A stretch of 64,000 nt of DNA. Origin: Norana najaformis (taxonomy: Eukaryota; Annelida; Clitellata; Crassiclitellata; Hormogastridae). Both the position numbers and the translations under genes were made by a program. The stretch spans positions 40,589,924-40,653,923 of the forward strand of contig OZ029914.1 in assembly GCA_964023275.1 (NCBI GenBank), written 5' to 3'. The notes under the pieces were generated by a model that was not told the DNA's origin, ran no database searches, and worked only from the letters and a program-made list of their open reading frames with translations. Below, piece after piece: positions 39,430 through 63,555 of this stretch (position 1 is the first letter of the stretch; each line of letters starts with the position of its first letter).

Positions 39430-39466
39430 ATGTTCATTTTAATCGTAGCATCAAGCTTGATAAAAG
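39430..39466 (+). CDS. Spare signal-peptide exon of the Ig receptor family
   Basis: ATG followed by 12 codons (MFILIVASSLIK) and a G, then a GTGAGT donor: the same length, phase and flanks as the first exon of Ig gene 1 at 40,534. About 1.1 kb of flanking sequence is duplicated between the two (38,945-39,740 and 39,985-41,900). No Ig exon follows before the second copy. It could be an alternative first exon of gene 1, since the phase-1 donor can join to the acceptor at 42,285, or a remnant of a lost gene. Confidence 0.6.
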
Positions 39467-40533
39467 GTGAGTTATTCAATTGAATCTTTAAGCAGACCGC
39501 GAATTTCTGATGAAATCTTATAGCGCATTAATTAGGCCACCTGTAAGTATTCGATTATACAGTGGCATTCAAATACAAGCTGCTTTAAAGGTTTCATGAA
39601 GGTGCTATGTAAATCTTGAGGTACATGCCATTTCTTGCAAACCAAGTGCAAATAAAATCTCACTATCTGCTTTATCACAACTTCTAAATAACTCAACCCT
39701 TTTCCCAATAATTGGTTATAAAAGAAACCTAAAATGATTCAACGAAAAATTTTCGGTTAATTCCGCAAATTCTCCGTTTCTTCACAAATCCCGTCATTCA
39801 CGCACCATCACTCGAGTCAACCTTTTTCTATCTATTGCTTCTCAGACTTTCCATTCAAAACTAAAGCCCCATCTATTCAAGTAGTCTTACCCTGATCCAT
39901 AGAATTAGTGGCCTTCCCAAATCTCTCTAAAAAACAACATGAACCAGCGTTTTGTATAGTAACTTGATTTTTTGTGTAGTAACTTGACACAGATTTGAAA
40001 CTGTTTTCCGTGTTCGATGGGCAGCCAGTGTAATGATTGGTAAACGGGTGAACGTATTGATATTGATATTTAGGGGTCTCTTTTGTAGTTCTGGTCAGGG
40101 AACGCTGAATCATTTATAGTTCAAACCACTAGAAGTTTTCACGTTTCACATTTCGCTATCTGGCCTTGCCAATATAGTCGCCGCAATTTCAAGCACTAAT
40201 CACCTGTTGCAGTCGCTGCCTACATTGGACCAGAAGTAAAAAATATAATATTTGCGGGCATGCTGCATCTAGTTTCGAGTTAGGCTGCTTTACCATGTGT
40301 ATGCCCTAAAATGGCACATGCTCATAACAATTAGCTCCAAAAGTGACTTTTTATAAGTGCTTTGAATCCGGTATCAACGTATACAGAGCAGTGCATTTTT
40401 ACTGGTGATCATCCTTTAACTCAGTTTTTTGCATAAGTTCACTGTTTTATGCTGGTTCTAAATATTTCATTTCCGCACTTTTAGATAATTCTGTATGCAA
40501 TTAGCGACTGGAAATAATTTTTAGCCGATTACT

Positions 40534-43500
40534 ATGTTCATTTTGATTGCAGCAGCAAGCTTGATAATAGGTGAGTTATTTAATTAATTAAATCTTTACT
40601 CAGTTCGCGAACTTCTAATGAAATATTATCAACAGTGCTTCAATTACACCACCTTTAAGTATTCGATTTTACAAGCTCCTTCTGCAGTTTTATGAAGGTT
40701 CTATATAAACCGTTCTACAATCGTATGGAGTTGACAACAAACTGATTCAGTTGTTACGAGACATAAATGGTACTTCACAAGCGGCGGTCAGGACATGTGG
40801 CAAGTTGGGACCGTGGTTTAGAACCAACAAGGGTATGAGGCAGGGTGATCCAATATCGCCCATGGTGTTTATAACAGATTTGGAAAGAGCAATGGACAAG
40901 GTCAAGAGCAAAGGAATATCAGTTCAGGGAATATGCATAAACAATTTACGTTTTGCAGATGATGTGGACATATTGGAGGAGGGACCTACAGAGCTGGAGT
41001 GCACAACACAAATGCTGAATGAAGAAGCAAAGAAATATGGACTGTACATGAACTTTGATAAGACAAAAACCATGGTATTTGGCGACAAAAATATCACCCA
41101 GCAGATAGTGGTTGAAAGAATGCAGCTGGAGAATGTAGAGAGGTTCACTTATCTTGGAAGTAATATGACATATGACCTAGATTGCAAAAGTGAAATAAAG
41201 ATACGAATAGCGAGGGGAATGGCAGTGTTGAAAGCAATGGATAAAACTTGGAAGAGCAAAGCAATCAGCATGAAAACAAAACTGGAGGTATTAAAGACAT
41301 GTGTATTCAGCACCATGATGTATGGATGTGAGACATGGGTCCTGACAAAAGACTCACGACGGAGAGTCTTGGCATTTGAGAGAAAATGTTACAGAAAAAT
41401 CCTAAGGATCGGATGGACTCAGAAGATTAGGAATGAAGAGGTCTACGAAAGAGTGGCTATAACCGAGAATCTACTGCAGAAGGTTATTCAGCGAAAACTT
41501 GGATTGTTTGGACATATCTGTAGATTGAAGGATGACAGAAATATTAAGACTCTGACGTTTGGAATTATGGAAGGTACGAACAAGAGAGGCAGACCACATC
41601 GAGAGTGGGTGGATGACATTGAGGAGTGGTGTGGCGCGGACTTGCAGAAACTGGGACATGCGGCTCAAAACAGAATCGAGTGGAGACACATTGTGAAACG
41701 GGCATCGGACACCTACGGGCATTGAGCCCATGGTTATTGATGATGATGATGATGATCTATATAAATCTCCAGATACATGTAAGATAGCCATTTCTAACTA
41801 TATGGATAAACCGGTGCAAATAAAATCTCACTAGCTGCTCTATCATAACCTCTAAATAACTCAAGCCTTTTTTCCAATAATTGGCTACAAATGATGCATA
41901 AAATAATTCCACCGGCAAGAGTTCAAATTTCCCATCCATGTATTTAATAATTAAAACTAGTTTTAATGCCATGCCAACGATTATAGCAGGCAAATGCCAG
42001 AGTAAAGACCCTAACCAATGTTAATTAAATGAAATCTGAAAATATAGTCAACGGTTAGTGACTTAGTTCTGCTCCATATCAAGAGTCAGGAATGATGAAT
42101 CATACTTAAGGCATCTTACCCAACACCTGTTCACACTTCTTATAAATAACTGCACGTGATCGATTTCATAATTGTAGGCCTATATATGAAAATAAATTAG
42201 TTGAGTGGTGTATGCTAAGTTAATTTACATAAAGACTGGTCCTAACATTGCAAGAGTTTAGACTGGCATTCTGGTAATTTTCAGGTGCATCAGCCAAGTT
42301 TACTGCGTTTCCTTCTAATACAGTAACAACTGCAGGAAGTAAGGTCGTCTTGGAATGCAAAACAAATACATCAAAGAGACTGATGTGGAAAGAACGACTT
42401 CTAGATGCAAAAGAGAAAGGTTTGTCATTTGGGCTAATCTTCACCGGAAAAAAGTTTTCCACCGAATCAGCGCAGAAATACGATATCATACTTGAAGCTG
42501 ATGGACAAGTCGATCTCAAATTCAATGCTACTTTGGACCACGCCAATGAATACATGTGCGAAGAACCAGGTGGAGATAACTTCACTGCCCAACTTACAGT
42601 TCTAGGTATACGCCTCTTCGTTTTCTTATATATTATATAAGATACATATTATTTTATATTTTGTATATCTTATTAACCTCAAGCTGTTTATTTGGTTATC
42701 ATTTGTCACCGCTTGTCGTAATATTTAGATATAAATTATGCTCATGTTAAGGCAGTAGTGTATTTTTCTTTAGTGCAAATCTATTAACATAATTTGAAAC
42801 TCTAGTGATAAGCTTTTGGTTCCCTGCAGTTGGCAATTAGCTCATCTATATTTCAGCATCTGAACCTAAATGCTACGTGAATGGAACGCAAACGACCTCC
42901 AACTTAACTGTCGTTGATGAGGGAGAATATGTAGAGCTGAAGTGTAATTTAACCTTCGCTGGACGATGGAGTCCTAATATGGAGTGGAAGCAGCAGATTA
43001 ATTTAGAGAACGACTGGAAGATCATTGCCAGCCAAGAAGAAACTGGGATAAAAGGCAATATTTGTTTCGTTTCCACAATTCTAGCTGTGAAAGACACCAA
43101 AAATGTCACCTCTTATATGTGCACAACTCGATTTCTGGAGTCTGCTCGCCCAAGAACGACTGCCGCCGAAAACATTCCAGAATATTCATATAACTGGACA
43201 TCGCCACCTTTTGTCTTACGGTGTAAGTTGATTCAATATTTTCATAATTATGTAGAACATATATTTCAATATCCAAAATGAAATTGATATGACAACTAAT
43301 TATGAATAATGTGTGAAATTGCTACTTTACAAATTTGAGAAAAAACATATTTACATAATTTAGGAATTATGACGTGCATCATTTAGACAATTATATTGAT
43401 GCATACATGCGTCCTTTTCACCAACTCTGGTTGATACAATTTAGGGTTTAGTAAATTGGTTCCTTAAGGGCGAGCAAATACAACTCCGCCACTGCCGTTC

Positions 43501-45039
43501 TCTGGATTAAAAAAGGCGATGCTAATTGTCTTCGTTATGATAAAGCGTCTTTAAACAGAAACTAGTAGTGAGCAAATACTGTTTTCATTGGCATTGCTAT
43601 AATTTTGATCACACTGTATTAAAATTAATTTGAAAACAGACCAATGGACCTACTTTAAGTCAGATATATTTCTGATCGTAATTATTTTCCGTATGAAAAA
43701 CAAAAAATGCGAGGTAAAGACCCGAATATACGAATTCAACATATTTCGGTTTACCATGTGTTTAACAATAACAACAATAGGCCTAGTTGTGGAGGTATAT
43801 TGCCTATAGATTATAACTTTGTTGCTTTTTGTTTCCAATCGCAGCTTTTTATGAAATCATGTACAGAATACAAGAAGAACAGAGTGATGAAAATCTAAAA
43901 TTCGAAAAGAAAGGTATAATGCTATAGTTACTTACAAATATTTTACTAAGCGTTTATATCTCTGTTCATACAAGTCTGAATTCGATCTCTGAAAACCAAT
44001 GTCTTGCATACTCAAGGCGCTCAGTATGTGTAATGTATCAGAGTATGTGCTAGCTCTAGGATAAAATTAGTTAAAATGGTGATTCAGAGACTTTTCTTGA
44101 AGTTTCATTTTGTCAGAAAACTGGCATGAAACAGGCAAACGTGTTTAAATTATATATTTCTTCTTTGTAGGTCTCGAACCATGGGCACTGGTGTCTTTGA
44201 TTCTAGTTGTTCTGCTGGTCATCTCGATTTCTGTAACAATCTTCGTCATACTTCGCTATATTGTCTGTCAGAAGAAAATCCAAAGTGAGTTGATGGATGG
44301 TTGTTGATTAAAGTTAATAAGTGAGTGGCCGATCGAAGGAGTAATCAACAGATTTTTTCTTGTAATGGTTGTCAGTATATTTGCCAATCTCCCTGAGTCC
44401 ATTTTCTAACGCCATGCATGGAGTGCTCCTCAGCAGAACGACATTGATAAAAATTAGATTTTTAAGAATAGTTTAGATTACAAGAAAAATCCAGATGTAG
44501 CGTGATATGAAAAAAAATCAACATAATAAAATCAACCAACGCATTGGTTCACTTAACATAATCTCACAAACCTTCAGTTTTCATTTATATGTGAACAAGT
44601 GTGCTTGCTCTTAAAATACGTTCATTCTATACTGTCATAAGTGATAAAATCTCGTTAGTTGTTTTTCATAGTGGAACATCCTGAAGATATTTCTCTACCC
44701 TTGCAGTCTTCGTCAAACGTTGACAGTCTCGTTACTGCATCCACAGACATAAGATCAGAAAGGACTCCGACTTCTATGCCTGCATACGAAGAGGTGGACA
44801 TCGAACCTCGTGCCGACACGGTGGCAGAAGGACGGACAGTTAGAGAAACACCACCAGATGAAAAGTACAGCAGTTTAGTTCAGTCTGACGTAACATCCAG
44901 AAAGCCGCACAACTACGAGGCAATCAACCTTCCTCAAATGGCCGATGACGCAAACACAATCAATATAAGACCTGAAAATGAACCAAATAATGATACAAGA
45001 GAACGTCTGCCAGATTACGTCAACATTTTGAGCCATTAA
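40534..45039 (+). CDS. Ig-superfamily receptor with tyrosine-motif tail, gene 1 (424 aa)
   Basis: Predicted type I cell-surface receptor. Exons: 40534-40570 (signal peptide), 42285-42605 (V-like Ig), 42857-43222 (C-like Ig), 43845-43913 (stalk), 44171-44284 (transmembrane), 44672-45039 (cytoplasmic tail, TAA). All introns are phase 1, and the exons sum to 1,275 nt. Ig1 has Cys37, LMWKE and Cys104 in YMC. Ig2 has LKCNLTF, GRWSPNMEWK and SYMC, with an extra Cys pair. The transmembrane helix is about residues 270-292. Tail tyrosines are Y341 (YEEV), Y368 (YSSL), Y384 (YEAI) and Y418 (YVNI). YSSL-x12-YEAI fits the ITAM spacing rule, and YVN fits a Grb2 SH2 site. N-glycosylation sequons are frequent in Ig2. 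The ligand is unknown; a role in immune or allorecognition signalling is inference from architecture. Exon 1 could instead be 39430-39466. Confidence 0.88.
40710..41756 (+). mobile_element. RTE-like LINE, 5'-truncated, in intron 1 of Ig gene 1
   Basis: Open for 325 codons (about 40,751-41,725): RT motifs RQGDPISPMVF and LRFADDVDIL, then the C-terminal region MYGCETWVLTKDSRR, FERKCYRKILRI, KLGLFGHICRL, KRGRPHREWVDDI. It ends with a TGATGATGATGATGATGAT tail. Flanked by the 9-bp target-site duplication CTATATAAA (40,701-40,709 and 41,757-41,765). The duplicated block at 39,600-39,640 is an empty site. The 5' part of RT and the endonuclease are missing. The intact frame and perfect flanks indicate a recent insertion. 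Confidence 0.92.
42285..42605 (+). CDS. Ig gene 1, exon 2: V-like Ig domain
   Basis: Borders TTTTCAG and GTATAC, phase 1 to 1. Residues 13-120. B-strand Cys in VVLECK, C-strand Trp in LMWKE, F-strand HANEYMCEE with a diverged D.(A).Y.C motif, G-strand AQLTVLG. Same length class as gene 2 exon 2 (321 versus 315 nt) but low sequence identity, as expected for a ligand-binding distal domain. Confidence 0.85.
42857..43222 (+). CDS. Ig gene 1, exon 3: C-like Ig domain
   Basis: Acceptor TTTCAG, donor GGT before GTAAGT. Motif PKC...VELKCNLTFAGRW.PNMEW...SYMCTTRF. The block C.L.F.G.W.P.M.W is shared with gene 2 exon 3 and looks like the family signature. Carries several NXT/S sequons (NLT twice, NVT, NWT). 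Ends with a hydrophilic segment before the stalk. Confidence 0.85.
43845..43913 (+). CDS. Ig gene 1, exon 4: extracellular stalk
   Basis: 69 nt, phase 1 to 1. The charged sequence (YRIQEEQSDENLKFEKKG) links Ig2 to the membrane helix. Supported mainly by exact phase, splice borders (TCGCAG, GGTATA) and position; gene 2 has an 81-nt exon of unrelated sequence in the same place. Confidence 0.6.
44171..44284 (+). CDS. Ig gene 1, exon 5: transmembrane segment
   Basis: 114 nt, phase 1 to 1. Helix from LVSLILVVLLVISISVTIFV followed by ILRYIVCQKK, a basic stop-transfer. No charged residue inside the membrane, so no DAP12/FcR-gamma type pairing is suggested. Gene 2 has the same exon length and the shared core VLLVIS. 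Confidence 0.9.
44672..45039 (+). CDS. Ig gene 1, exon 6: cytoplasmic tail with four tyrosine motifs
   Basis: Tail of about 121 residues. Motifs in order: PAYEEVD, KYSSLVQSDV, NYEAINLP, DYVNI. They match, in order, the tail of gene 2 (AYENV, KYSAL, NYETINLP, EYVNI), while the linkers are poorly conserved, which is the pattern expected for phosphotyrosine signalling sites. None is a strict (I/V/L/S)xYxx(L/V/I) ITIM because position -2 is P, E, H or P. Confidence 0.88.
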
Positions 45040-46957
45040 ATTCGTTAAAAAATAGAATTTAGTGTATTCAGCCTCATTCAGTATGGCATATTTCAACCTG
45101 TATTACTCATTATCTTCTTGTATTACTCATTGACTTTCTTATTCCAAACTCATATGTCCTTCTAATTATCCTTCCCTACTGAAATGTATACTGCAACTAC
45201 ATGCAATGAGAACTGTAACTACAGTAACGTGGAATGACACCAATTATATTTTCTCTAAGTTGAAAATTACAAAAATATTATTTGTAAATGGATTCCAGAT
45301 TGCTATATTTATGCATCGATAAGACCTGTTCTAGATCGAAGGGGAGCTTTCTGTAGCACATGCAATATATTGTTAAATGTATTGGACCGTCAACATGGAC
45401 AGTGGACATTCCAAATATTCAGATTTTTTAACGCAACTGCGTAACTTTAAAAATGATAAAACGACTTTAGCTGGTATTAAGTTATATAATTTTAGTCCTT
45501 AAGTGGCATTCTTTGCATATTTTATTATGAGTCTGACCCATTTGTTTTTACATTCGTTAAGAAATTGCTAAGTATCAGCTAAGCATTTACCAATGTTCTT
45601 TGGCTTTATCTCAATTGATTGTTTTTAAACGGCCCATAATTAAGCAGGATTTTGATGCTTTTTGGGTCTGCGATCATGAAGTACACCGATGACCTGTTAA
45701 TTTTAGGTTAAACTTGTATCTTCTCAATTTTGGGGACGAAAAACGAAGATGAAACAATGCAAGAATGAATAGTGAAAGTAATAATAGAAACGAAGATGAA
45801 ACAATGCAAGAATGAATAGTGAAAGTAATAATAGAAATGGCGACAATAATCATACAGTTTAAGTTTATGGTGGTAAATATTAATTTAGATAATCATTTAT
45901 GCGCCTATACAATAAATAATGAAAGCCTATAAAATAACCTTGTTGAAGACTTGTTCACACTTTTCTTTTCAATAAACAGCATACACGGAAAACAAGCTTC
46001 TGTAGCCTACACTACAACTTTGAAGCAACTAATTAATAAGTGGATCGCATTTACCCTGCCAGCATGCCCATTAGGGTGGTCCATGTATGCATGGTACTTT
46101 CCTTTTCTGCTCGAAAAGCTATTATTGCGTTGCCGACTCTAAATTACGGCCACAGCTCTAAGCCTTTATGAAATTAATGTTAAAAATACGATTTTAGGAC
46201 AATCAATAATTACACACAAACCACAGTTCAACTGTGCATAATTAACTTTCACTTTTGTCCAACCAATGTCGGGTTTGTGGTACATGTGCACGGCGCAAGC
46301 TCGGCTTTGCGGTACATATGTACGGCCAAAGCTCTGCACATCACAGCTAAACGTCGTGTTTCTTTCTCAGATCTGTAATTTTGTGACTGTAGCATCCGTT
46401 CTTTACACGACACTACCGAAAAGACCCAACCAATTAGACTTTTCCTTTGTAAAGAGCAGCAAGTAGTGAGTTTCAGACAGCATACGAGAATCTGCGTTTG
46501 CCAAACTTCTATCTTGACAGTTCGAATCTAGACCGCTCGATGAGCTAAGCGGATGCGGGGCAGAAGGCTTGCCGTTGAAGTGACAAGTGCAGGCAGCCTA
46601 CGAGATGAGCTGCGCCCTGCATGCATGATCAAACGCATACAGGACGCATAGGCCTAATTAACTTTAACCTAGGTAGTGGATGTAAGCCATTTTCTAGAAT
46701 CGCATTATGCCATTACGTTTTGTTAACGCACAACGGCATAACTGCTTTCCTGCAACACATTATACATTCCAGTTTGGCTTCAGTATCTACGTGTAATTAA
46801 ATACAAAACCAGCATCCATAGACCTGTAGCTTGATAGCGTAAGCGCACATTGACATAAGTGTAATTAAGACACGTCAGACGGAAATTGAAGCGTTTTCAA
46901 TGATAAACGACATTTCCGTTGTAGTACGTCAGTCGACTGTCGTTTTACATAGCAGTC
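45040..46957. other. Spacer and 5' flank of Ig gene 2
   Basis: No gene seen. From about 45,340 onward it is homologous to 61,255-63,521 in front of gene 3. It includes a 47-bp tandem duplication (45,730-45,838, unit ACGAAGATGAAACAATGCAA and onward) that is single-copy at 61,640. Possible AATAAA signals for gene 1 lie at 45,911 and 45,972, but both are far from the stop. Confidence 0.5.
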
Positions 46958-49900
46958 ATGTGGATCATCTTATCAGCAGCGTTCATCGGCGGTAAGTTTC
47001 TTTACCTAATATGATATGTCTGTGCAATATTGTTCGATTTAAGCGTATTTTTTATATGTATGCTAAAGTTACCAGCTCTATACGACTCAAAATGACAGAC
47101 TTCGTCCTCTTTATGTGAACTTAAACTTAGCCCAACATAACAGCTTCGTTTTCCTTGTTCCTGGTCTCACGTGAACAGGATCTTGTACTTCCCAAAAATA
47201 TGTCTGGACAACCCCTGTTACATGACGCAGCGCTCGTGAATAAGCTAGAATGCCCTGCCTAAAGCATTTAAGTAGCGTTTTAGAAATGTATAGTTTACCA
47301 TAACAATTAGTACGATTACGAATCTAAATGCTTCGAGGGTTTACTTAATTGTGTTATAACGCGATATCTACGGGAATCCCTGTTAACTTTGAAAGACTTC
47401 TCAGTCTGGAGTTGAAAATAGAAGTCTAAACTAAGGTCCATGGCTGGAATTTGAAGTGTGTGGCTGTAACTATGCAGGTCTAAAGGCTACATTTTGACAC
47501 CTGCGGTTGGACCTTCGCACGCTGGGAAATATGAAATTAAGTTAATCAAACATATAGTCAAAGTGTCATCATTACTACGCTAGCATCTTCATCGTAATCG
47601 TAAACTCAAAATTTCTATAGAGCTACTTGAAAGCTAAGCGCAGGGCACCAGCTCATTCACGAGCGCTGCGTCGAGTTATTGAGGTTGCCCAAAGATGCCA
47701 TGTCAGGAACCAAGTTCGGTTGCCAGAAGACCAGAGATAGGAAGGGAGAGAAGGTTAGGGTGGGTTATGTTTCAGCTGAGAGAAATCGAAAGACAGAGGA
47801 TTCGATTGAACAGGGTGGGGTTTTGTTGGCAAGGTGAGACCAGTTTTGAATGGAATGCCTGAGCAGTAATGGATAAAGTGAACGATGGAAAGGGATTAAG
47901 GAGCACAGAATTTGAGAAATTCAGGAGGGAGATCGTTCCAGAGTCGAGATGTATTCATGTTATTCCCACCTCATCCTCTTCTCATAAAGGCTAATGAAAT
48001 AACTTCAAAACGTCTGTAACACAAAAACGTCTGTAGCATTCCACTTCCAGATTATTTCACGTAGGTATATAAATGATGCATTTCACTTGCAGGCTTTTAA
48101 AGAATTTCTTTCTGAACTGACACTTCACAGAAGTGCCATTTGATGCGATTATCATAAAGGCACCCCAGTTTAATATGAATGTTTGCTGCCATTATAGAAG
48201 CTGCACTCAAAAATAGCAAATATTTCACGTTAATAGGCCAACTTTTTAAAAATTATAACTGGCCATTTCATTTGAAAGAAAAAGTCCAATATACATATCT
48301 ATATATAGCGTTATATATAATAAAAAATATAAAATAAAAGTAGCAGTAGGATTAGAAGGTTGTTCGTGGCATAAAACCCGCTGGCATAAAATTTTATTAG
48401 TGGGCATGCATGCACTCCTATCGCAAGAGAAAGATAAAAGATACCGAATTAACAAACTTCAGGCGATTTTATAAACCGCACACTCTAACAGTTAATCTTT
48501 TCACATATTGGACCATATTAAATTTTTGTTTTTAAGCATTTAATCGAATTTACAAGGATATTATGTCATGTTTCTGTTTTTAGAAGAAACCCCTTGTTAA
48601 TTTGGAAGAGGCCCCAAACTTATCCTTAGACTAGTGTGTTTTAAACCCTTCGACAGATTTCTGAAAGTAGCGCATTAATAATATTCAGATAAACCCGTAT
48701 TTATATGCCAACTTATTACCACCGTCAGTTGATGTTGTAGCTGTGGCTAAAGTTCACGAAGGACCGAAGAATATGGCAGTCACTGCAGGTGAAGCGACGC
48801 AGATGACATGTGCACAAGATTCAGCAGATACAGTTTTCTGGTTTCATACTTCGCCGAAAGATAAGATCGAACAAACTCTGTTTGACGGAACGAAAATTTC
48901 CCATGCCAATTTTTCAAATACAAATGCAACGGGTCGAGTGCGTGGGCAGATTTTAAATATCAATCCAGTGCAATTGGAAAACTCTGGAGTTTTCAAATGC
49001 TTAGTAAATGAAGAGGAACTTTCTGCTCAACTAATAGTCTTAGGTGAGCTTTCTTTTGTACGGTTATTTTAGTTTCGCTATTCTGTCTTTTTAGATCCTT
49101 ATGTCATCCATCAAATTAACCGTCAATAATCTCTGCTGGCTGACATAAATTCTTAAGCATCTATGACGTGGTCTGAAAGAGATATAAGATGAGGCTGTAC
49201 CATAGCAAAGCAAGACTATGACCAACCTGTCGGATTAGCAGTTTTACTCGTGGGCACTTCTCTCACAACAGAAGGTTGAAAGATAAAGAGTTTACAAATT
49301 GCATGTGATTCTATTATCCGCGCACTCTAATATTTTACAAGTTATCAAAAGTAGTGCTTTATTAACTTTTGTTTTCAAATGAAATATTTTATCGAGTGTA
49401 CCAGGATTGTCTATCACGTGTTGGCCTTCAGATGAATTATACTTTAATAGGATCGTGTATGTGATGGCTGCAGTTGATATTAATGTTGTAATAAAATCAC
49501 TGTACCTAACCACTCTTCATTAATGAGCCGTCTGTCTGTCTGTCTGTCTGTCCTCCAGGCTTCAACATACCTCAACGACTCTGGTCTGCACTTAACCGAT
49601 TCGGTCAGGTCAGGGTTGTTGTGCACATAATCTCGTCAAATGAGGTCAAACCACAGGTCCTTCGTTCAGCTGTGGTGTAGTGCAGACTATGGCGCACATG
49701 ATCGAATTTTGTCCGCAAAACACATTCAAATGGCGGAGTATTGGCTCTTCATCTCTCTGGTGATGACGCTTGCAACTGGCTGGGCTTGAATCGCTTACGC
49801 TTTAAGAACTCTTCCTAAATAAACAGTTTATAAATAAACAGAACTCGTGGAAGTTATTTACAAGTGTGCCAAGATAAGCCATTGCAATGCGATGCATGTA

Positions 49901-52900
49901 GGCTACCCCACCTTTTCCTTAACTAGGTTAACGTTTTCATACTTTAGGGTCTAAGCCAGTATGTGGTACAGCGCCCAATGTTGATCGTCGGGGCTTTGTG
50001 AACTTGTGGTGTCGAGTAAACTACACAGGTTTCTGGCCTCCACGTATGCAATGGATGAAAGGTGATAGAAAACTAGAAAGCAAAGATCAGCGATTGCCTA
50101 CAAGCCTTTCAACTACTTTGACAGTCGAAAACGAGTCAGTTGGAAGTAATGCGAGTTATTCATGTAAAACATACTTCGTAGCCGAAGACAATACGTTGAA
50201 AGACGGAAACCAGATAGTCAGGAACGTTCCAAACTTTACATTCACATTCAGTTCAGGTACAATACGAAAAAATCATGTAGACTTAAGTTTTCTAATAATA
50301 GCATAGCATTGCTCGTGTCATATAAATCGCGATTCGATTATTGTTTGGATACGGAATACATTATGGTGATATCGTTCTATCATTCATATATATATATATA
50401 ATTATATATATAATTCTAAATTGAAAGCCATCTGTAGTTAAATAACTGATTTCTTCACAGTTGCTGCTTACAATTCTGCAACACAGAATACTCATCTGGA
50501 TAATGAAGTAACAACACAACACGTGCCTATGACTAACAATGGTAATGTCATCATCATGCATTGCAACATTGTGATTATGCTTAGCGATAAAAATGATAAC
50601 GAAGATGATATTTGTGGCATGCGATAGGGAGTGACGCGCTATAGAATGTACGTAGGCATGCATGTATGTATTATGTACATACATTGTTGCAAGTTGTCCA
50701 GAAGCAGATTAATAATTCACTTGGTTTTTGATAAAGATCTCTATTTACAAGTTTAACAGGTAAAAAACAGTTTCCAGTTACCCAAGAAAGAACAACGACG
50801 GCTGATTCAAAGCACAAAGTTGAAACCTTCTACACCAAAGAAACAAGATATCAGAATTCTTAACAGATTCCTCAGACACACCGGGGACCTTTACATACTT
50901 TAGTTAGCGGAGCTTTGGCACAAATAACATCATAACAGAGTCAGGTCTGACTCAACCTATACTTAACTAGCCAAACTCTCAAAATTAACGAATACTTCCA
51001 TTTTATAGGGTTAACCGCTTCACGCCCTCCAAGATACGGTTCCTTCTACCAACACTCCTTACATCCGAATCCTACCTAGCCCGGCTTTAACAACATATAT
51101 ACACATATATATTGTAATTGTAATTGTAATCTGACATTTATAAAGCGCCACTTCAAGAATAGACTCATCAGAAGCGCTCCCGACCCGAACCAGTGAGACC
51201 ACTGGCAAATAATACAGACTTCAGGCGCTTGCGAAACTGTGGAAGAGACAAACTGAGGAATACTAGCCGGAGCTCTCGGGAAAGGCGATTCCAGCTGTTA
51301 AGTCCAACATAGGCAAAGCTTCTAGACTGCGCTGTAGCAGTGCGCATACGAGGGACAGTCAGAAGTCCAAGGGAGGCCGATCGGAGAGTGCTACGGCCTG
51401 GAACCAAGGAGACCGAAATGCAGAACATATATACTCATATATATGCATGAATGTGTGGTTGTATGTATGTGTGTATGTAGTTACACATGTATGTGTGTAT
51501 GTAACGCCTTTTAAGGGCCTCTCAGATACGTTGAAATATGCCTCACTATAGCAGATCTAAAAGAAACGATTTGCAGTGAAGAGATTAGCTGCAAATGTTT
51601 TCAGTCATTTCTGATGGTAACGTTTTAAATTTTAACGAAGTATTGTTCCAGAAGGACGGACCGATGCACGATAAAGCATAAAGTATCCAAATCCGAATCG
51701 AATACCGAATTGGTATCCGAATCGCTGTTTGCCAACAGGTCCTCAAGTGTTGTAGGGTGCACTCTCGTTTGTCCTAGATGGATTGAGACAGAATCACATG
51801 TTTTTTTGACATTTTCTAGGCCCGAACCGACCACCGAGGATCCCTGGTACGGAATGTCTTGAATATACTTCTGTCCTCAACCGGGAGCCAGTGCAGTGGC
51901 TCAGGCATTTTTAGTTTAATCCTTCCCTACCATCTATGCAGCCCCGTGTTCAACCTCCTCTCTCACCACCCCAAAACGTTTTCCCCAAATCTCTCACCGT
52001 TTTTGTAACATATTTTTTATCCTTTTTATGCTCTCACTGTCTCCTCCGATTCTGAAAGTAAAATGCTTTTTTTGACATTAAAAGTTTTAATCTCAAAGAC
52101 TGTATTTGCATTGTATTTGACAATTTGCATATCGCGTCTTACAGAATCAATTACTCTGAGGCGCTTCCACCACGAGAATCCTCGAAGAAAAGTGCACAAA
52201 TATCTGCACAAACTGAAATATATTGAAGCTGTAATAGCTATTTAATTTTAGTTTAGGAATTTGATGTTATGCAGTCAAGTTGTAAGTGCAATATTACTTA
52301 AACATCATTCAGTTTGGTTAAGATATATTGCATTGTAACATTTCTCGGGTTCGACTCAATACCAAATGCATCGCTCATTTACATGTGCACAGTCAAAAGA
52401 ATAGCTAAACACAGCAAATTCGTTGCTCATGGGAGATTGCTTCAGATGCCATTTTGCCATTATAAATTTTCTATTCCAGCTATCCGTAATTACTAATATT
52501 GTTGTGAGCTTTATATGTGCAACCAAAGTAAGCTGTTCTTCCAAAATGAGCCAAATATCTGTTTCCTTTTAAATTAAGGTGAAGAACAAATGGAACAGAT
52601 AACCATAGTTTATTTGCTTAATTTAGCGTACAGCCTTATGACTTATTTTTCAGCAAACACTATCTTAGGTCGCGGTTGTGTTTTCTGAACGATTATAAAT
52701 TATTACATAATGGCCGGCATGGCTACAAAAATGACCATATACAACACGTATAACAGTTTAGCCTAACAAAGAGTAAAGCCTACTCAAACATGCAGTAACC
52801 TACTACCATCAACATTATCACCATCGTTATCACCTTTATCATCTTCATCATCATCAGAATAGACTGAATTGTTGTAAACGCATTATACTCCGTTTCTCTT

Positions 52901-53617
52901 TGCAGGTTGTACATCATTGGCTTTGGTTGCCGTGATTCTCGCAGTTCTTCTGGTCATCTCAGTTCCAGTAATTATCTCCATCACGCTTTACTTCACCGTC
53001 GGCCGGGGAAAAGCGAGAAGTACGTGGTTATGTGTGCAGTATGGACAAGTTAGTTAGTGAGCAAGAAACAGCCATCTATCCATCCAGCCAGCCAGCCAGC
53101 CAGACAACAAGTCAGTCATTCAGCCAGCCAGCCAACCAATCAGTCAATCACAGTCAATCAATCAGTCAGTAAGTCAGGCATAGCCAGTCAGTCAGTCAAT
53201 CAGTCAGTCAGTCAATCAGTCAGTCTAAATATATGTGTCTAAACTGTTACGGAAGATGTGCTAAATTTGCATTATGCTTTCAAAACAGAACCCTCTCTAC
53301 CCCAAAGGTCTTCAGAAATCGATAGGAATCTCACCACTACATCCACCGCCCTTTCAACGGAAAGGACGTCTCAGACGGTTCTAGCTTACGAAAATGTCGT
53401 CGATGAGCATGTTGCAGGAACGGCTGCAGAAGAAGGTTCATATGAAAGAATTGAGCCAGGTGTCAAGTACAGTGCTTTAATTCGATCCGAAGTAACTCAT
53501 CCACGAACTAATTACGAAACCATAAACCTTCCTAGCACAGAAGCATCCGTTATGAGCCAGCAACGCATCTCAGTGGATGAAGAAGCACGTTCGGTTGAAT
53601 ATGTCAACATTCCTTGA
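46958..53617 (+). CDS. Ig-superfamily receptor with tyrosine-motif tail, gene 2 (393 aa)
   Basis: Paralogue of gene 1. Exons: 46958-46991 (signal peptide MWIILSAAFIG), 48729-49043 (V-like Ig), 49948-50256 (C-like Ig), 50461-50541 (stalk), 52906-53019 (transmembrane), 53289-53617 (tail, TGA). All introns are phase 1; total 1,182 nt, 394 codons with the stop. Ig1: Cys39, VFWFH, Cys102 in GVFKC. Ig2: LWCRVNY, GFWPPRMQWMK, ASYSC. Transmembrane helix around LALVAVILAVLLVISVPVII. Tail tyrosines: Y318 (YENV), Y336 (YERI), Y345 (YSAL), Y360 (YETI), Y389 (YVNI); YSAL-x11-YETI fits ITAM spacing. Function as a signalling surface receptor is inference from architecture. Introns carry a LINE end, a CAGT/CAGC tract and AT repeats. 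Confidence 0.88.
48729..49043 (+). CDS. Ig gene 2, exon 2: V-like Ig domain
   Basis: Borders CCGTCAG and GTGAGC, phase 1 to 1. QMTCAQD, DTVFWFHTS, then LENSGVFKCLVNEEE and a G-strand SAQLIVLG that closely parallels gene 1 (TAQLTVLG). Contains the sequons NFS and NAT. Confidence 0.85.
49948..50256 (+). CDS. Ig gene 2, exon 3: C-like Ig domain
   Basis: Acceptor ACTTTAG, donor TCAG before GTACAA. PVCG...VNLWCRVNYTGFW.PRMQW...LSTTLTVENESVGSNASYSC. Shares with gene 1 the C.V.Y.G.W.P.M.W signature and a P-x-F/Y-x-F/Y ending before the stalk. Confidence 0.85.
50461..50541 (+). CDS. Ig gene 2, exon 4: extracellular stalk
   Basis: 81 nt, phase 1 to 1, with a good acceptor (TTTCTTCACAG). Thr/Asn-rich sequence (NSATQNTHLDNEVTTQHV), probably glycosylated or flexible. 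Replaces the charged stalk of gene 1. Confidence 0.6.
51112..51430 (-). mobile_element. LINE 3' fragment in intron 4 of Ig gene 2
   Basis: On the minus strand: [40 protein letters not shown], then FRKRLKSVLFASGLTGSGRE and a 3' end with ATTACA repeats (read on the plus strand as TGTAATTGTAATTGTAAT). Best-kept of three copies of this family (others at 10,020 and 28,145). Confidence 0.8.
52906..53019 (+). CDS. Ig gene 2, exon 5: transmembrane segment
   Basis: 114 nt, phase 1 to 1, acceptor TTTGCAG, donor GTACGT. Helix LVAVILAVLLVISVPVIISI, then TLYFTVGRGKAR as basic anchor. Same length as in gene 1. Confidence 0.9.
53055..53225. repeat. CAGC/CAGT/CAAT tetranucleotide tract in last intron of Ig gene 2
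   Basis: CCAGCCAGCCAGCCAG, then CAGTCATTCAGCC and CAGTCAATCAGT-type units between the transmembrane and tail exons. Open frames here are artefacts. Confidence 0.85.
53289..53617 (+). CDS. Ig gene 2, exon 6: cytoplasmic tail with five tyrosine motifs
   Basis: About 108 residues: LAYENVVDE, SYERIEPG, KYSALIRSEV, NYETINLP, EYVNIP-stop. Aligns in order with the gene 1 tail; the YERI site is extra. The order YxxL/I pair then YVNI at the extreme C-terminus is kept. Confidence 0.88.
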
Positions 53618-53847: not shown

Positions 53848-53853
53848 AATAAA
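53848..53853 (+). terminator. Polyadenylation signal of Ig gene 2
   Basis: AATAAA in TCTTAATAAAACATTTTG, about 230 nt after the TGA stop, with a T-rich stretch upstream. It is the first canonical hexamer after the coding sequence. Confidence 0.6.
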
Positions 53854-53974: not shown

Positions 53975-55640
53975 TACTTATAGAGCGCACTTAGGCCTCT
54001 AGTTTGAATTAGTAAGAAGTCTATAAAGATTAACAGAATTAGGTAAATGGCTACATAGCCATCCAAGACTGAACATCACCAAAAACTCAAGCAAGTAGTT
54101 GGAGAGCGGTATTAGACGTGCAACTGCCGAATGAGAGGAATAATTGAGTATCATCAGCGTACATATCGTAGTCAAGACAGCTATCAGTAAGTAGTGAACC
54201 GAGTGGAGTCTTGTGCAGTGTGAACAGGAGCGGACCCAGTACAGAACCTTGTGGAACGCCACAATTCAAGACAGTAGGCTCAGAAGTGATTTGGTTGATA
54301 CGGATTGACTGAGAACGAAGGTGCAGGTAAGATGCGAACCAATGTGGGGCGGGACCGGAAAGACCAAACCAATGTTCGAGACGGTGAAGGAGTATGTCAT
54401 GATCAACAGTATCAAAAGCGGCAGATAGGCCGAGGAGTAATAGAGCAGTTACTTTTCCTTTATCCTTGGAGCTGATCCTGTGATTGTGAATGGTAAGCAG
54501 TACGGTTTCAGTGGAATGATATTTGCGGTAGAAGGAATGGAAAGGAAGGAACAGGTTGTGGGAAGAGAGGTTACGATTCGGGCGATTAGCAACTACTTTT
54601 TCCAGAATTTAAAGAAAAATTGAGAGTAGAGAAAGTTTTATAGATCGTCAGGTGAGAGAGAATATTAAGAAGAGGGTAAACCATGGCACGACCAGAACTG
54701 TTTGGAAAAATGAGTTCAACAAGAGAAAGTTTGGCAATGGATGTGAAGACTGAACCCAAGACATCGAAGCATTCTTTTAGAAGTGCGGTAGGAATAACGT
54801 CCAAGGCACATTGTTTATAAGGAGATGAAAAATTTATATTACGAATCTCAGGCAATGTTGTTGGTAGAAAAAGACTAAGACCCGGTGGAGAAGATTTAGG
54901 ATATGATAGGCCATCGAAAGAAGAGCTGTTAGAAAAACAAGAGATCTTGTTAGAAAAGAATTATAGGAACCTATCATTAAAGGAAGAAAGTGATGAGGAG
55001 TTAGGTAGTAAATTGCAAAGTGATGAGGAGTTAGGAAGTATATTGCATTTGTCGCGGTGTAGGATCTTCTTATTCATCACCTGCCATAGTAACCAAATGA
55101 GACAAGTAGGTGAATTTCGCAGCTGAGACAAGTTTACGGATACTACGATGCTGGCATCTAAATTTGATGAGAAGAGAAGGCAAAATTGGAAGGGTCGCCA
55201 ACACCGCTCCAGCCGTCTGCACAGCCTCCTAGCAACAGCATTGTCTGAGTTGTACCAGGACTGGGAAGGGCGTGCTGCGACCCTCTTAGACCTGGCAGGA
55301 ATGAGCTTATCCAAGATTTCAGATGAAGTTGAATGTTTGAATTTTGCAAAATAAAAGGGTATTGCAATGGCGAGACAGAATATTTGGTGGTGTGGATCTT
55401 GCAACAACAGAGAGCTTATGTGAGCAACTGGCAAGCTACTGGCGAAAATTTGTCGTCCAAGGACATTGATGGTTTAGTAAATGTTTGCACGCCACTTCTT
55501 CTACCCACTGCCCGTGGAAAGCCAGTCGGTGGTCGTTACCTTGTGCTGCGGACTCTCACTCGGCTGTTGTCATTTTGAAGTTTTCAGATTCCCAACGCAT
55601 CATGGAAGAGGAACTCTGAAAACTAAGTCAAATGTGGATG
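53975..55640 (-). mobile_element. Degenerate CR1/L2-like LINE reverse transcriptase
   Basis: On the minus strand, in pieces with frame breaks: an upstream SWYNSDNAVARRLCRRLERCWR segment (about 55,250), YKQCALDVIPTALLKECFDVL (about 54,800), then GVPQGSVLGPLLF and YADDTQLFLSF (54,130-54,265). These are the finger, core and catalytic motifs of a CR1/L2-type RT. It is dead by frameshifts. It lies antisense directly downstream of Ig gene 2. Confidence 0.85.
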
Positions 55641-57625: not shown

Positions 57626-57657
<32 letters not shown>

Positions 57658-58129: not shown

Positions 58130-58215
58130 CAGTATCGAAGATGATTCAGGCAAGGAGCCTCTGGCTGTTTGGACACATCGGGGGCTGCGAAGATGACCTG
58201 GACCATGCCAGCGCC
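58130..58215 (+). mobile_element. LINE C-terminal remnant
   Basis: Encodes VSKMIQARSLWLFGHIGGCE followed by DD, matching the RTE-type C-terminal region seen as KLGLFGHICRLKDD in the element at 40,710-41,756. Very short. Confidence 0.45.
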
Positions 58216-58662
58216 TTGCGAGTAGTTTCCAATGTTCAACGACATCTTAGTGTAATTGTAATTACGACAATCTATAAAGCATCGTTAGTAGCATGCTACT
58301 TTTAGGGTGCTTTACAAAGTCAATAGTCAGCTAAGAGTCAGAACATCTTATAGAACCAAAGCCCGTTGATTATAAAAAACGTTTTTACAGTATTTACTGA
58401 AATTTGGACAAATCGCGCGCCACAAAGGTGACCAGGACGATGCAAGACACTTGTAAGCAATGATTGAATTCCCGGCCCCGCGAGAGATCAGAAGAGACCA
58501 GGCGGTCTCCCTCTCTATACTTAAACAAGAACAGTGGAAGCTGACCTGTGCCCACTGAACTACGGGTTACAAACGGTCTGGATTCGATCACAGAATAGAG
58601 AAGGCTGGCTACAAGTTATGAAAAAAGGCAACGCTCCAGACAGGAGCATACCACATACGATG

Positions 58663-59035
58663 CTGTATGTATGTATGTATGTATGCATGCATGCATGTAT
58701 GTATGCGCGTATATGCATGTATATGCATGCATGCATGTATATATGTATGCATGCATGTATGTATGCCTGTATGTATGCATGTCTGTATGTATGTATGCAT
58801 GTATGTATTTATGCATGTATGTATTTATGCATGTATGCATGCATGTATGTATGCATGCATGAATGTATGTATGCATGAATGTATGTATGCATGCATGCAT
58901 GCATGTATATGCATGTATATGCATGTATGCATGTAAATATGTATGTATGTATGTAAATATGTATGTATGTATGTAAATATGTATGTATGTATTTATGCAT
59001 GTATGCATGAATGTATGTATGTATGTATGTATGTG
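58663..59035. repeat. ATGC/ATGT tetranucleotide microsatellite
   Basis: About 370 nt of ATGTATGCATGC-type repeats; both strands give long spurious frames (MYVCMHAC, YIHTCIHA). Confidence 0.95.
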
Positions 59036-59446
59036 GTTAATATATAGTCTTTTAAAACCACTGCAAGGCGCTAATGTCTTGCTGTCTAACATATCTGAAC
59101 TGTTTAACACTGTAATCCCATCGGCGCTATGACTAATTCATAGACATAGGATACACTATGCCAGCCTTTCGCGAGAATGTCGATTAATTTAAGTTACCCG
59201 TTTATTGTACTTACATCGATGCGTAGTAATGTTAAAGTTGTAACACCAATGCATCAGGAATAATTTGATGACGTTTCGATAAAACATGTTAGAGACTGTT
59301 TACAGCTTACCTTTCTGCGGCCTTTAGAGAAAAATGTTCGCCTAGACTTTATGCATCCAATCATCGAATTTGAACCACTGTACGTCTTTTTCTGTGTATT
59401 TGTGTGACTCCGTCTGTCTCCTTCTCCCTTCATTCACTTTCTGCAA

Positions 59447-59465
59447 GCTCTCTCTCTCTTTCTCT

Positions 59466-59512
<47 letters not shown>
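59447..59512. repeat. TC dinucleotide run
   Basis: CTCTCTCT for about 60 nt with a few TT interruptions at the left. Confidence 0.95.
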
Positions 59513-59514
<2 letters not shown>

Positions 59515-59844
59515 AGAAAACCAAAAAATGCGAGATTCAAAGTAACGTGTCAAGATGGCTAAAAACCAAGAGATGCAGCTAGCTTTACAGAGACAGTGTC
59601 ACATCAGTAATTTCTTGTTAGGTTCGCCATTGAACGAAGGGTTGTTTAACACAGATTTTTCTGATTCCGACAGGCATCGAAGAAACGAGTAAAGAAGGGT
59701 AGAAGGAAGAAAAGAAGGAATTAAGAAAGGAGCGAAAGAAGGAAGGAGGAACTCAGGAATATCTTGATGCACATAGGCCCATATAGAAATAACGAAAGAG
59801 TGGGAAGGACATGGAAAGAGCGAACACAGAAAGGGTAAAAGGCA

Positions 59845-60100
59845 AAGAAAGGCGTTTTGTCTTTAATATATAAAAAAGAAAGAAAAAAGGACAAAACGCC
59901 TTTTTTAAATCAATTTCTAAAGGGCGCTTTTTCTTCCTTAATTCTTTTTCCTGACATCCTTCCATTTTTCTTCATTACTTCCAATTTTACTACTTTCCTC
60001 CTTTATTCCCTTACTCCTTCCATCCTTCCTTCTTTGTTTGAAAGTCGTTTTGTCTTTGATTATTTAAAAGAAAGAAGTAAAGGACAAAACGCCTTTTCTT
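59845..60100. repeat. Two tandem hairpins with AAGGCGTTTTGTC / GACAAAACGCCTT arms
   Basis: First hairpin about 59,850-59,912, second about 60,045-60,100. Each has a 12-14 bp stem and an A/G-rich loop ending in AAAGGACAAAACGCC. They look like two copies of a small inverted-repeat element within a CTTT-rich tract. Confidence 0.75.
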
Positions 60101-60740
60101 TAATTAATCCTTTACTAAAGGATGTTTTTTTCCTATTTCCTATTTTTCTTGCCGTTCTTCCATTTTTTCATTACTTCATTGTTTACTACTTTTCTCCTTT
60201 ATTCCCTTTCTTCTTTTTTCATTCCTTCTTTCCTTCCATCCATCCTTCCATTCTTTCTTTATTTCTTCTTTCCTTCCTTCTTTGTGTTTGATGTCAGGCC
60301 AATAGCTCCCTGGCCAGTTACCCTTGGATAAAACTCCGGGCAATAACCTCTCATGGATAATAACCTCAGAAATATTATCAGTGAGTTTAAAACCCTTGTC
60401 CATTAAACTCCCAAATTAATCTACAGAATAAACACCTGTATAAATATAACACGTATTTTGGGAGGTTATTGCCCAAAGATTGTAAACTGGAAGGCTATTT
60501 TCCTGTGGGTTCATTTCCTATGGGATTATTGCTCAGGGGTTTAAAACTGGAAGATAGTCTTCAGGGAATTGTTGTCTGGAGGTTTCAGCCGATGCTACAA
60601 AATATTAAAACAGTAAAATAGTAAAACAGAATGCTCAGTCGACTACTACGAGGTTGACATATTCGTTAAAGGTATAGGCCTAACGGCCACCCCAAACCCG
60701 ACTCTTATCGGTTTGTCTGCAGGCGTTTGGTGGAATGTGA

Positions 60741-61250
60741 CTACCAACGAAAAATTTTCGGTTAATTCCGCAAATTCTCCGTTCCTCCATAACTCCCGTC
60801 ATTCACGCACCGTCACTTGCGTCAACCTCTTTCTATCTTTCACTTCTCAGACTTTCCATTCAAAACTAAAGCCCCAGCTGTTCAGGTAATCTTACCTTGA
60901 TCCATAGAATTAACGGCCTTCCCAAATTCTCTCAAAATAAACACGAACCAGCCTCACTTGACACTGATTTGAAACTCTTTTCCGTGTTCGATGGGCAGCC
61001 AGTATAATGATTGCAATACGGGTGCACGTATTGAAATTGATAGTTAGCAGTTCCTGTTATAGCTCTGGTCAGAGAACGCAGAATCATTTATAGTTCAAAC
61101 TACTAGAAGTTTTCACCTATCCCTATCTGGCCTTTGCCACCATAGTCGCCACAATTTCAAACACTACTTAATGCCGTCGCTGCCTATATGGGACCAGAAG
61201 TGATGAACGTAATAGCTGCGGGCATACTTCATCTTGTTATATCTTATAAT
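60741..61250. repeat. Third copy of the Ig gene 1 5'-flank block
   Basis: AAAATTTTCGGTTAATTCCG through GAAACTCTTTTCCGTGTTCG and beyond matches 39,741-40,260, and in part 38,945-39,200. The signal exon that follows in the other two copies is missing; homology switches at about 61,253 to the gene 2 flank. Confidence 0.8.
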
Positions 61251-61252
61251 GC

Positions 61253-63521
61253 TTTCTGTACCACGTACGATGAATTTTAACATTAAATGTGCTGGGCCGT
61301 CAATTTGGGCATTTTAAATTGCAGATTTAAAAAACTGCGTAACTTTAAAAGTGACAAAAAGACTTTAATCAGTATTAAGTTGTATATTTTAGTCCTTAAG
61401 TAAGATTCTTTGCTTGTTTTGTCACCAATACACGAAAACATTTGTTTTTCTTTTAGGTAAGAAATCACTATGTATAAATTAAACATTTACATGTAATAAT
61501 TTTCCTCGACTTAATATGTATTAATTGATTATAATTGGCACTAATTAAGCAGGATTTTGGTGCTTTTTGGGTCTCTCGTTGGTATACCGATAACCTGTCA
61601 ATTTTAGGTTAAACTTGTGTGTCAATTTTGGGGATCAAAAACAAAGATGAAAGGATGCAAGAATGAATAGTAAAAGTGCTGGAATAGTAATAGTACTTGC
61701 AGAAATTGTGACAATATTCATATAGTGGTAAATATTCACTCAGATGAACATTTATATTATAAGGAATATTTTAATATTCATTATTATAATGAATATTATA
61801 CGCTATTATAATGAAATGCAAATAATATATAAAACTCTTGTTCAACTCTTTTCAATAAATAACACACCTACAGGATAAGCAAACTTATTTATGCTAAACT
61901 AAAACTTCAAAGCAAATAATCATTTGCGTGGATTGCATTTTGATGAAATGAAAACAAGTACTACCTTACTTTACTGAAAATCGTGAAGGTGCTTAGAATT
62001 GTCAATGACTTGGTCAAATAGGACTGAAGCTGATCCAGGATTACAACTTAATTCTGAGAAATGACTAACAGCAAATATATGTATTCGAAGTTGCTCAGGA
62101 GTATTGCCACAATTTTTTGACTCCAAGAAGATTTGGCTGACCGTAATAAACCAAATACAGAATAACAAGGCTGACAAATCTGTTATTGCACTTGCAATTT
62201 GTTGACTTACAACTTTATTAAACTAATCTAATATTAACAGGTCATGTAATGTTATAATTCATGCTTAATTTACTTTTATGTACTATTTCTCGTTTGCATG
62301 CCATAAAGTCGTTCAACGCCTCTTTGATCGACTTGTGCAACCTTAACTACGGTGCAATTTGGCTGAAATTTCCACCATATTAGTTCTTTAGTAGATGATA
62401 AGTCTCCAACATAAAATTTTATTAAAAAATTACCTTAGACCACTCTACTACCCATAAACATTTTAAGGGACCCACATGGGTTCTATGTGGGTGCCAAATA
62501 GAAATATGGTCCCACCAACATCATCATGGTCCCACATAGGCCTAAATTGTGTATGCTGGCAGAGTAGGAGTATGAAATGTAAGATGAATTTGCATTTAGG
62601 GTAACTCAATTGCGAAAATTTAATTTAAGCTTGGTTAGCTAAACATTTCATTAACCCCCGCTTTCCCTATATCTGTCCGAAAAGCAAATCTTCGTTGTCG
62701 ACGCTAAATTACAGCTTGATCTCTAAGCCTTTTATGACATCTTTATTGTGACATTATTATTAGGACAATCAAGAATTATACACAAACGAAACTTTATACG
62801 AACTTTAACTTTTGCCCAACATATATCGGCTGTGCGGTACATGTGTAGGGAGAACTGTAAACATTACAGCTAAACGCAAAGTTTTTCTTTCTCAGATCTA
62901 TTTATGTTGACTGCAGCTTCTATTGCGCGACACTGCTTAATAATGTTTTCATAGATATGAGACTCAAGCAAATAGACTTTCCTACAAGTCTGAGGTGCTG
63001 TCGAAAGTTTGTTCTTAACAACATTCAGGCTAGCATAGGCAGCGCTTTTGTAAGATACCAAAAGGCGCTATATAAAGCAGTCTGCATCTACACCACTCGC
63101 TGAGGCTTGCAGCTAACAAAATCCGACAGCGTGCGAGATGTGCTGCACCCTGCGTGAAACAAAAGCAACAATTAACATTGACCTAGAGGGTGGATGCATT
63201 ACCAAATATAAATATACTACTTTGTTGAATCGCATTATGGTCGTCCACTGAGTTCACTCGTGCCGAAATAATTGCTTTCCTGGAAGACAGAAGCGCATTT
63301 TACGAACAAGGAACCCTTCAAAAGCGCTTATATATACGTCCCAATAAGGCTTCCGTGTATAAATCAATTAAAAGCCCAGCATCCATATAAGTTGATAGCA
63401 TCAGCCCAGTAAGTTTAATTAAGACATGTAATATGGAAAATAAAACTTTTTCGATGACGAACGACATTTCCTTTATTGTACGTCAGCCGACATTTTCTTT
63501 ATTGTACGTCAGCCGACAGTC
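61253..63521. repeat. Copy of the Ig gene 2 5' flank
   Basis: Aligns with about 45,340-46,957: GCTTTCTGTA, ACTGCGTAACTTTAAAA, CCTTAAGT, AATTAAGCAGGATTTTG, TTTTAGGTTAAACTTGT and the promoter-proximal TTTCC-TTGTAGTACGTCAG block. It carries its own insertion around 61,970-62,540, which reads as non-coding. TTTCTTTATTGTACGTCAGC is tandemly repeated just before the gene 3 ATG. Confidence 0.8.
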
Positions 63522-63555
63522 ATGTGGATCATCGTGTTAGCAGCGTTCGTCGGCG
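63522..63555 (+). CDS. Ig receptor gene 3, signal-peptide exon only (gene continues beyond window)
   Basis: ATG then MWIIVLAAFVG and a phase-1 GTACGT donor, 34 nt as in gene 2 (MWIILSAAFIG). The downstream sequence (63,556-63,900) still aligns with gene 2 intron 1 (for example TAACCGGATCTTGTACTT against 47,170). The Ig exons are expected 1-2 kb or more past the right edge. Confidence 0.75.

Follow-up and report, generated by a model that had tools for sequence, protein, structure and literature searches.

The window analysed here, a stretch of 64,000 nucleotides from the annelid Norana najaformis (C2:40589924-40653923), carries two complete genes and the start of a third. Judged from their sequences, these genes probably encode a family of single-chain, type I receptors with immunoglobulin (Ig) ectodomains that signal through tail tyrosines resembling an immunoreceptor tyrosine-based activation motif (ITAM). 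A first-pass annotation of the same letters had proposed an expanded family of self-contained receptors, with two complete six-exon genes in phase 1 throughout and a third gene begun. These models were borne out: gene 1 (39430-45039) comprises six exons and 424 amino acids, gene 2 (46958-53617) six exons and 393 amino acids, all ten introns are of the GT-AG type in phase 1, and the joined frames contain no internal stop. The genome-wide tail search that had been suggested (608 Mb, 17 contigs; tail exons of genes 2, 1 and 3 as queries) yielded 17 related tail exons, from which two matches containing stops (E 2.6 and 3.6) are excluded. In 13 of the 17 tails a tyrosine pair of the form YxxL/I-x6-12-YxxL/I is kept, every one with x11 or x12 between its halves. 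The exons of the three genes in the window are the following.

39430..39466, forward strand: gene 1 exon 1, signal peptide start (MFILIVASSLIK), GT donor, phase 1
42285..42605, forward strand: gene 1 exon 2, Ig domain 1, V-like cysteine spacing; Pfam Ig matches weak, all below cut-off
42857..43222, forward strand: gene 1 exon 3, Ig domain 2 (GRWSPNMEW); Pfam Ig matches below cut-off
43845..43913, forward strand: gene 1 exon 4, stalk, from the gene model
44171..44284, forward strand: gene 1 exon 5, transmembrane helix, core without charged residues
44672..45039, forward strand: gene 1 exon 6, cytoplasmic tail with YEEV, YSSL-x12-YEAI, YVNI and stop
46958..46991, forward strand: gene 2 exon 1, signal peptide start (MWIILSAAFIG), preceded by a block common to genes 2, 3 and 4
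48729..49043, forward strand: gene 2 exon 2, Ig domain 1, from the gene model, Pfam and a PDB sequence search
49948..50256, forward strand: gene 2 exon 3, Ig domain 2, from the gene model and Pfam
50461..50541, forward strand: gene 2 exon 4, stalk, from the gene model
52906..53019, forward strand: gene 2 exon 5, transmembrane helix, from the gene model, core without charged residues
53289..53617, forward strand: gene 2 exon 6, cytoplasmic tail with YENV, YERI, YSAL-x11-YETI, YVNI and stop
63522..63555, forward strand: gene 3 exon 1; the remaining exons lie past the window end (C2:40655307-40659563)

Reading 199 kb beyond the window end completed gene 3 and revealed a fourth gene. Gene 3 has five exons and encodes 334 amino acids, with YENC and YAAL-x12-YAEL in its tail; gene 4, also of five exons (333 amino acids), starts 15.4 kb further along, and an inverted copy of the tail is located between the two. 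A stalk exon was found in neither gene 3 nor gene 4, and in both the Ig domain 1 exon is followed by a GC splice donor (C2:40655621 and C2:40671063, respectively). Six further tails lie upstream of the window (C2, 40.477-40.585 Mb), so that upstream copies, genes 1 to 4 and the inverted copy make up an array at 40.48-40.67 Mb. Of the upstream copies, g0 was covered as a 3.2 kb stretch and the other five tails by 180 to 282 bases each, that is, as parts of genes. Four copies designated a, b, c and d are found on the minus strand of C2 at 39.49-39.74 Mb, and one tail fragment each on C3 and C5. The exons of copies a-d, taken with 60-base flanks, are 84-92% identical to those of gene 2. The exon boundaries and splice sites of domain 1, domain 2, stalk, transmembrane helix and tail in copies a, b and d match those of gene 2, with the exception of the tail acceptor in d, which is displaced by three bases; the intact exons of copy c keep matching boundaries as well. 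The first exon of copies a-d was not found in the 10 kb fetched per copy. Birth and death of gene copies within an expanded family is, in our view, part of the best explanation.

The tyrosine pair had been read as YSSL-x12-YEAI in gene 1 and YSAL-x11-YETI in gene 2, and both do lie within the YxxL/I-x(6-12)-YxxL/I rule. The x11 spacing is present in gene 2, copies a, b, c and d and the C3 fragment, the x12 spacing in genes 1, 3 and 4, the inverted copy and three intact upstream copies (seven tails). The ITAM-like pair is, on the level of sequence, the one pattern common to genes 1-4, the three upstream copies and copies a-d. Shuffling the letters of each tail produced such a pair with P 0.008 for gene 1, 0.011 for gene 2, 0.003 for gene 3 and 0.0045 for gene 4. 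A six-frame scan of 227 kb, beginning at 36 kb and limited to open reading frames (ORFs) of no fewer than 12 residue types, also turned up the loose pattern in 113 ORFs, and many of these are short or repetitive; the bare motif is therefore weak evidence and it is conservation that counts. That 13 of 17 tails retain the pair is a stronger argument against chance than the shuffling values. Motifs of this kind could alternatively be endocytic sorting signals for AP-2 in adhesion or scavenger proteins, without being docking sites for SH2 domains: YSAL and YETI fit the generic YxxPhi pattern, and a single YxxL persists in g0 and in the upstream copy 40548984, two tails that have lost the pair. However, one motif suffices for sorting, whereas here 13 of 17 tails keep a constant x11 or x12 spacing over divergent linkers, and YxN tyrosines, which are not of the sorting type, are present as well. 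Sorting signals in place of SH2 docking sites thus seem very unlikely to us; an additional trafficking role of YxxPhi is possible.

The YxN tyrosine, which corresponds to the Grb2 consensus, is present in 15 of the 17 tails at differing positions. It is located at the C-terminus in genes 1 and 2, copies a, b, c and d and the C3 fragment (YVNI) and in the C5 fragment (YANI), between the paired tyrosines in four of the six upstream copies, one of these broken (YENT, YENI or YVNT), and before the pair in gene 2 (YENV) and in genes 3, 4 and the inverted copy (YENC). None was present in g0, nor in the read part of 40548984. The first-pass annotation had regarded YEEV/YENV and the C-terminal YVNI as conserved, which is correct for genes 1 and 2 and, in the case of YVNI, for copies a-d and the C3 fragment. 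However, YEEV/YENV is altered to D in copy a, H in c and D in d, and YVNI is absent from genes 3 and 4. Judged from these tails, both motifs are features of subgroups and not of the family.

The residues around the pair bear on the sign of a signal. Patterns of the immunoreceptor tyrosine-based inhibitory motif (ITIM, [SIVL]xYxx[LVI]) and of the corresponding switch motif (ITSM, TxYxx[VI]) both fit at the two tyrosines in five of the 17 tails, namely in gene 2, copies a, b and c and the C3 fragment. The ITIM pattern alone fits in copy d, the C5 fragment and the broken upstream copy 40477209, and in 40493319 it fits at the middle tyrosine. Tails of this kind recruit SHP-type phosphatases in PD-1 and SLAM-type receptors, and the pair could represent such a module with an inhibitory or switching function, in which an ITIM precedes an ITSM; inhibitory members (gene 2 type) would then stand beside others in the family. 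Yet genes 1, 3 and 4, the inverted copy and the three intact upstream copies, 40561471 and 40578016 included, show neither pattern at the pair tyrosines and keep the pair all the same. In addition, the distance between the tyrosines (15-16 residues) is shorter than in PD-1. We consider this alternative unlikely.

Selection was estimated from gene 2 and copies a-d as pooled Nei-Gojobori ratios of nonsynonymous to synonymous substitution (dN/dS) over pairs that are not independent of each other; the set consisted of these five paralogues without the C3 and C5 tails, and copy c was omitted for domain 2 because of its damaged exon. The ratios were 0.45 for domain 1, 0.30 for domain 2, 0.87 for the stalk, 0.52 for the transmembrane exon and 0.75 for the tail. 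The comparison of domain 1 with the tail that had been recommended thus gave the higher value for the tail as a whole. When the tail was split (ten pairs pooled), the ITAM block plus YVNI showed a dN/dS of 0.22 and the rest of the tail one of 1.13. Variable columns with amino-acid changes and with silent changes only numbered 9 and 8 inside the block versus 42 and 11 outside. This contrast between the five close paralogues is strong in size and modest in formal support, the per-site test being only suggestive. The linker between the two tyrosines is only 25-58% identical in seven comparisons of representative members, whereas it is nearly identical inside the gene 2 group; the earlier statement that linkers diverge while motifs are kept accordingly applies to the distant members and not to this group.

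Ordinary tandem Ig adhesion genes, partly decaying, in which the tail tyrosines are kept mainly through recent common descent, would be in agreement with the close similarity of copies a-d to gene 2 and with the damage seen in several members: a TAA stop in the C3 fragment and in 40477209, a domain 2 exon of 286 instead of 309 bases in copy c, and a truncated first Ig exon in the C3 and C5 fragments. The dN/dS contrast within one exon and the persistence of the pair at the low linker identities of distant members argue against this explanation, which we regard as improbable to a similar degree as the sorting signals.

Several observations weigh against a family of ITAM-like receptors. The stricter ITAM form, with an acidic residue and a spacing of x6-8, occurs in none of the 17 tails, and the pair has been lost in four: the second tyrosine is replaced by asparagine in g0 and by a stop codon in 40477209, the second motif reads YEAR in 40548984, and the spacing is x13 in the C5 fragment. 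Several copies are broken, as described above. A Fisher test of the block against the rest of the tail resulted in P=0.057 per site and in P=0.12 for variable versus not-variable columns. The ectodomain evolves more slowly than the whole tail while a fast arms race with ligands predicts otherwise, and in the gene 2 subgroup this argues against ligand binding having been under recent diversifying selection. Finally, no Syk-type kinase was identified in a search that reached SH2-domain matches only. In favour of the receptor family we count the presence of SH2-domain exons in the genome (131 matches) and of two unrelated-looking tail ORFs with tyrosine pairs near neighbouring Ig genes.

The sequences show the exon structure, the family, the conservation of the motifs and the contrast in selection; phosphorylation, binding partners, the sign of the signal and a role in immunity we infer as follows. 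The receptor would expose two Ig domains on the outside, followed by a short stalk exon in genes 1 and 2, a transmembrane helix and a tail of ~90-120 residues. Binding of a ligand or clustering would allow a Src-family kinase to phosphorylate the tyrosine pair, and the phosphorylated pair could then dock a protein with tandem SH2 domains, either a Syk-type kinase or, for gene 2 type tails, an SHP-type phosphatase. The YxN site would recruit Grb2, so that ITAM-like and LAT-like sites would be combined on one chain. The single-chain ITAM receptor FcgammaRIIA represents a parallel in part. The sign of the signal, taken as activating (or dual) in the first-pass annotation, may differ between members because gene 2 type tails also fit an ITIM plus an ITSM.

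The ectodomain had been described as V-like in its first domain. Domain 1 is an Ig domain, and its cysteine distances of 67, 63 and 64 residues in genes 1, 2 and 3 are V-like. However, the V-set model (PF07686, cut-off 26 bits) scored 17.9 bits for gene 2, was unlisted for gene 1 and was not listed by Pfam at E 0.01 for gene 3 and copies a, b and d, and the V assignment is therefore weak. Generic Pfam Ig models exceed their cut-offs in gene 2 and in copies a, b and d, and Ig_3 was matched by gene 1 (E 2e-4) and gene 3 (E 2e-5), in both cases below every Ig cut-off. A PDB sequence search with gene 1 gave nothing below E 0.13; with gene 2, antibody light chains and other Ig proteins were obtained (best E 1.5e-4; best 60 of 683 matches). 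AlphaFold reached a predicted local distance difference test (pLDDT) value of 32 for domain 1 from a two-row alignment, which is useless, and of 63.5 for domain 2. In genes 1 and 2, Pfam searched up to E 10 listed no sushi domain. The transmembrane core of genes 1-3 contains no charged residue, which is consistent with a receptor that signals through its own tail and with the self-contained layout proposed earlier.

Comparable layouts are known from other animals. FcgammaRIIA and CEACAM3 of vertebrates combine an Ig ectodomain with a wide-spaced ITAM on one chain, and the leukocyte receptor complex (LRC) with its KIR and LILR genes consists of tandem clusters with different tails; the likeness is one of layout, no orthology is claimed, and the Pfam and PDB matches listed are generic Ig. 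Alr proteins of Hydractinia have an Ig-type single-pass layout with one exon per domain and resemble the present family in this layout, but they belong to another phylum and differ in domain number and tail sequence. About 40 clustered Alr and Alr-like genes are reported on one chromosome, some of them possibly pseudogenes (PMC11876637), and ITAM/ITIM motifs are reported for candidate Alr genes (PMC12065747), so that clustering and type of tail are shared; homophilic binding is reported for Alr. The fester co-receptors (FcoR) of the fuhc locus of Botryllus schlosseri likewise form a large, clustered invertebrate family; they are Ig receptors of type I with linkage to a recognition locus. They consist of V-Ig, sushi, two C2-Ig and a transmembrane segment (520-610 amino acids), with a long tail that carries ITIM, hemITAM or YxxI/L/V motifs (PMC12065747). 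The annelid family differs from these tunicate proteins in having two Ig domains, no sushi domain seen in genes 1 and 2, 333-424 amino acids and a spaced two-tyrosine unit. The oyster receptor CgIgIT is a lophotrochozoan Ig receptor on blood cells that also has a tyrosine-based tail, with five Ig domains instead of two; the motif of CgIgIT2 is termed an ITAM in the review text, while the title cited there says inhibitory (PMC11999971).

FcoR and Alr are the nearest described systems in the parts of the literature covered, and the earlier statement that no named family has exactly this layout seems right, the two being close in kind. No description of this family or of annelid ITAM-type Ig receptors was present in the titles and abstract openings searched, mostly of literature outside subscription. 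According to term counts, the words immunoglobulin and ITAM are absent from the main text of two recent reviews of annelid immunity (PMC13295531; PMC9756803, on soluble mediators). The family offers a concrete candidate for the way in which annelids could recognise microbes or foreign tissue. In a cnidarian and a tunicate, Ig receptors of the ITIM/ITAM type are reported at the recognition loci (PMC12065747). A clustered single-chain family in an annelid, if true, would bring a lophotrochozoan case into the debate over whether recognition through ITAM/ITIM is ancestral or arose by convergence.

A large expansion of Ig genes apparently includes the receptor family as one of its branches. The V-set profile gave at least 150 matches over the cut-off in the genome (150 of 150 scored; 910 candidates), and among the matches listed the clusters are mostly at ~1-3.7, 39.3-41.8 and 47.7-50.5 Mb of C2 and at 28.6-29.1 Mb of C4. 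With a mosaic query of domain 2, at least 115 exons reached E 0.01 or better, and 106 of these are located on C2 (best 150 of 266 scored). At ~85-128 kb beyond the end of the window, near further Ig exons of the minus strand, there are other tail-like ORFs, which by their position presumably belong to Ig genes. Two of them (C2:40767521-40767802 and 40782092-40782376, minus strand, ~114-128 kb past the window) represent a second type of paired-tyrosine tail, with YEKM or YEEI plus YGIL-x10-YASL or YGSL-x10-YTSL; the genome contains three matches to this x10 type, one of which is partial and has a stop, and the type looks unrelated to the main tail. Two related ORFs of ~300 amino acids (C2:40739089-40740003 and 40758872-40759771, minus strand) contain YCNV, YVNS, YTNI and either YANA or YTNA and look like a multi-Grb2 adaptor tail; in one of them, the first 260 residues matched no Pfam entry at E 0.01.

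Tentatively, and with considerable doubt, one might regard the C2 Ig cluster as the annelid counterpart of the Hydractinia ARC, the Botryllus fuhc locus and the mammalian leukocyte receptor complex. It would then be a birth-and-death array, probably polymorphic, that combines one ectodomain fold with interchangeable tyrosine tails (ITAM-like plus a Grb2-type site, ITAM-like x10, multi-YxN) and supplies the receptors behind graft rejection and cytotoxicity by coelomocytes. A clustered single-chain annelid family, if true, would provide candidate genes for the graft observation.

Two minor features accompany genes 1 and 2.

40534..40570, forward strand: duplicate of the signal exon of gene 1 (MFILIAAASLII), which also has a GT donor, within intron 1 of the gene
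53848..53853, forward strand: AATAAA poly(A)-type signal, read from the sequence 231 bases 3' of the gene 2 stop

The signal-exon copy belongs to a tandem duplication of ~1.1 kb and is possibly an alternative first exon or a relic. Bases before the ATG are kept among genes 2, 3 and 4, including AACGACATTTCC and GTACGT (window ~46870-46957 and 63430-63521), and this block could be a shared promoter element. ORFs that look by eye like non-long-terminal-repeat reverse transcriptases are present in gene 1 intron 1 (40709-41725) and, on the minus strand, downstream of gene 2 (54087-55473). A long microsatellite with a four-base unit at 29388-30155 is open in the three forward frames and reads as YLSI repeats. 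Rfam gave zero matches in the window at gathering scores.

Elsewhere in the genome, two features, a linker domain and a COX1 relic, point to an annelid, perhaps a clitellate. For the erythrocruorin linker domain Eryth_link_C, which is typical of annelids with their extracellular haemoglobin linkers, 29 matches reach E 0.001 or better, the strongest of them 8.1e-32. Thirteen distant linker-like exons occur within 160 kb at C5:36718918-36879561 and fall far short of the strongest matches, which are on C16, C9 and C1. Decayed nuclear copies of COX1 are located at C15:412069-412726 and 570464-571281; the relic, which does not look like COX1 of a tunicate, reads NMRW(AGA)GLRLERIPLF, in which the AGA stands at a serine position of annelid COX1.

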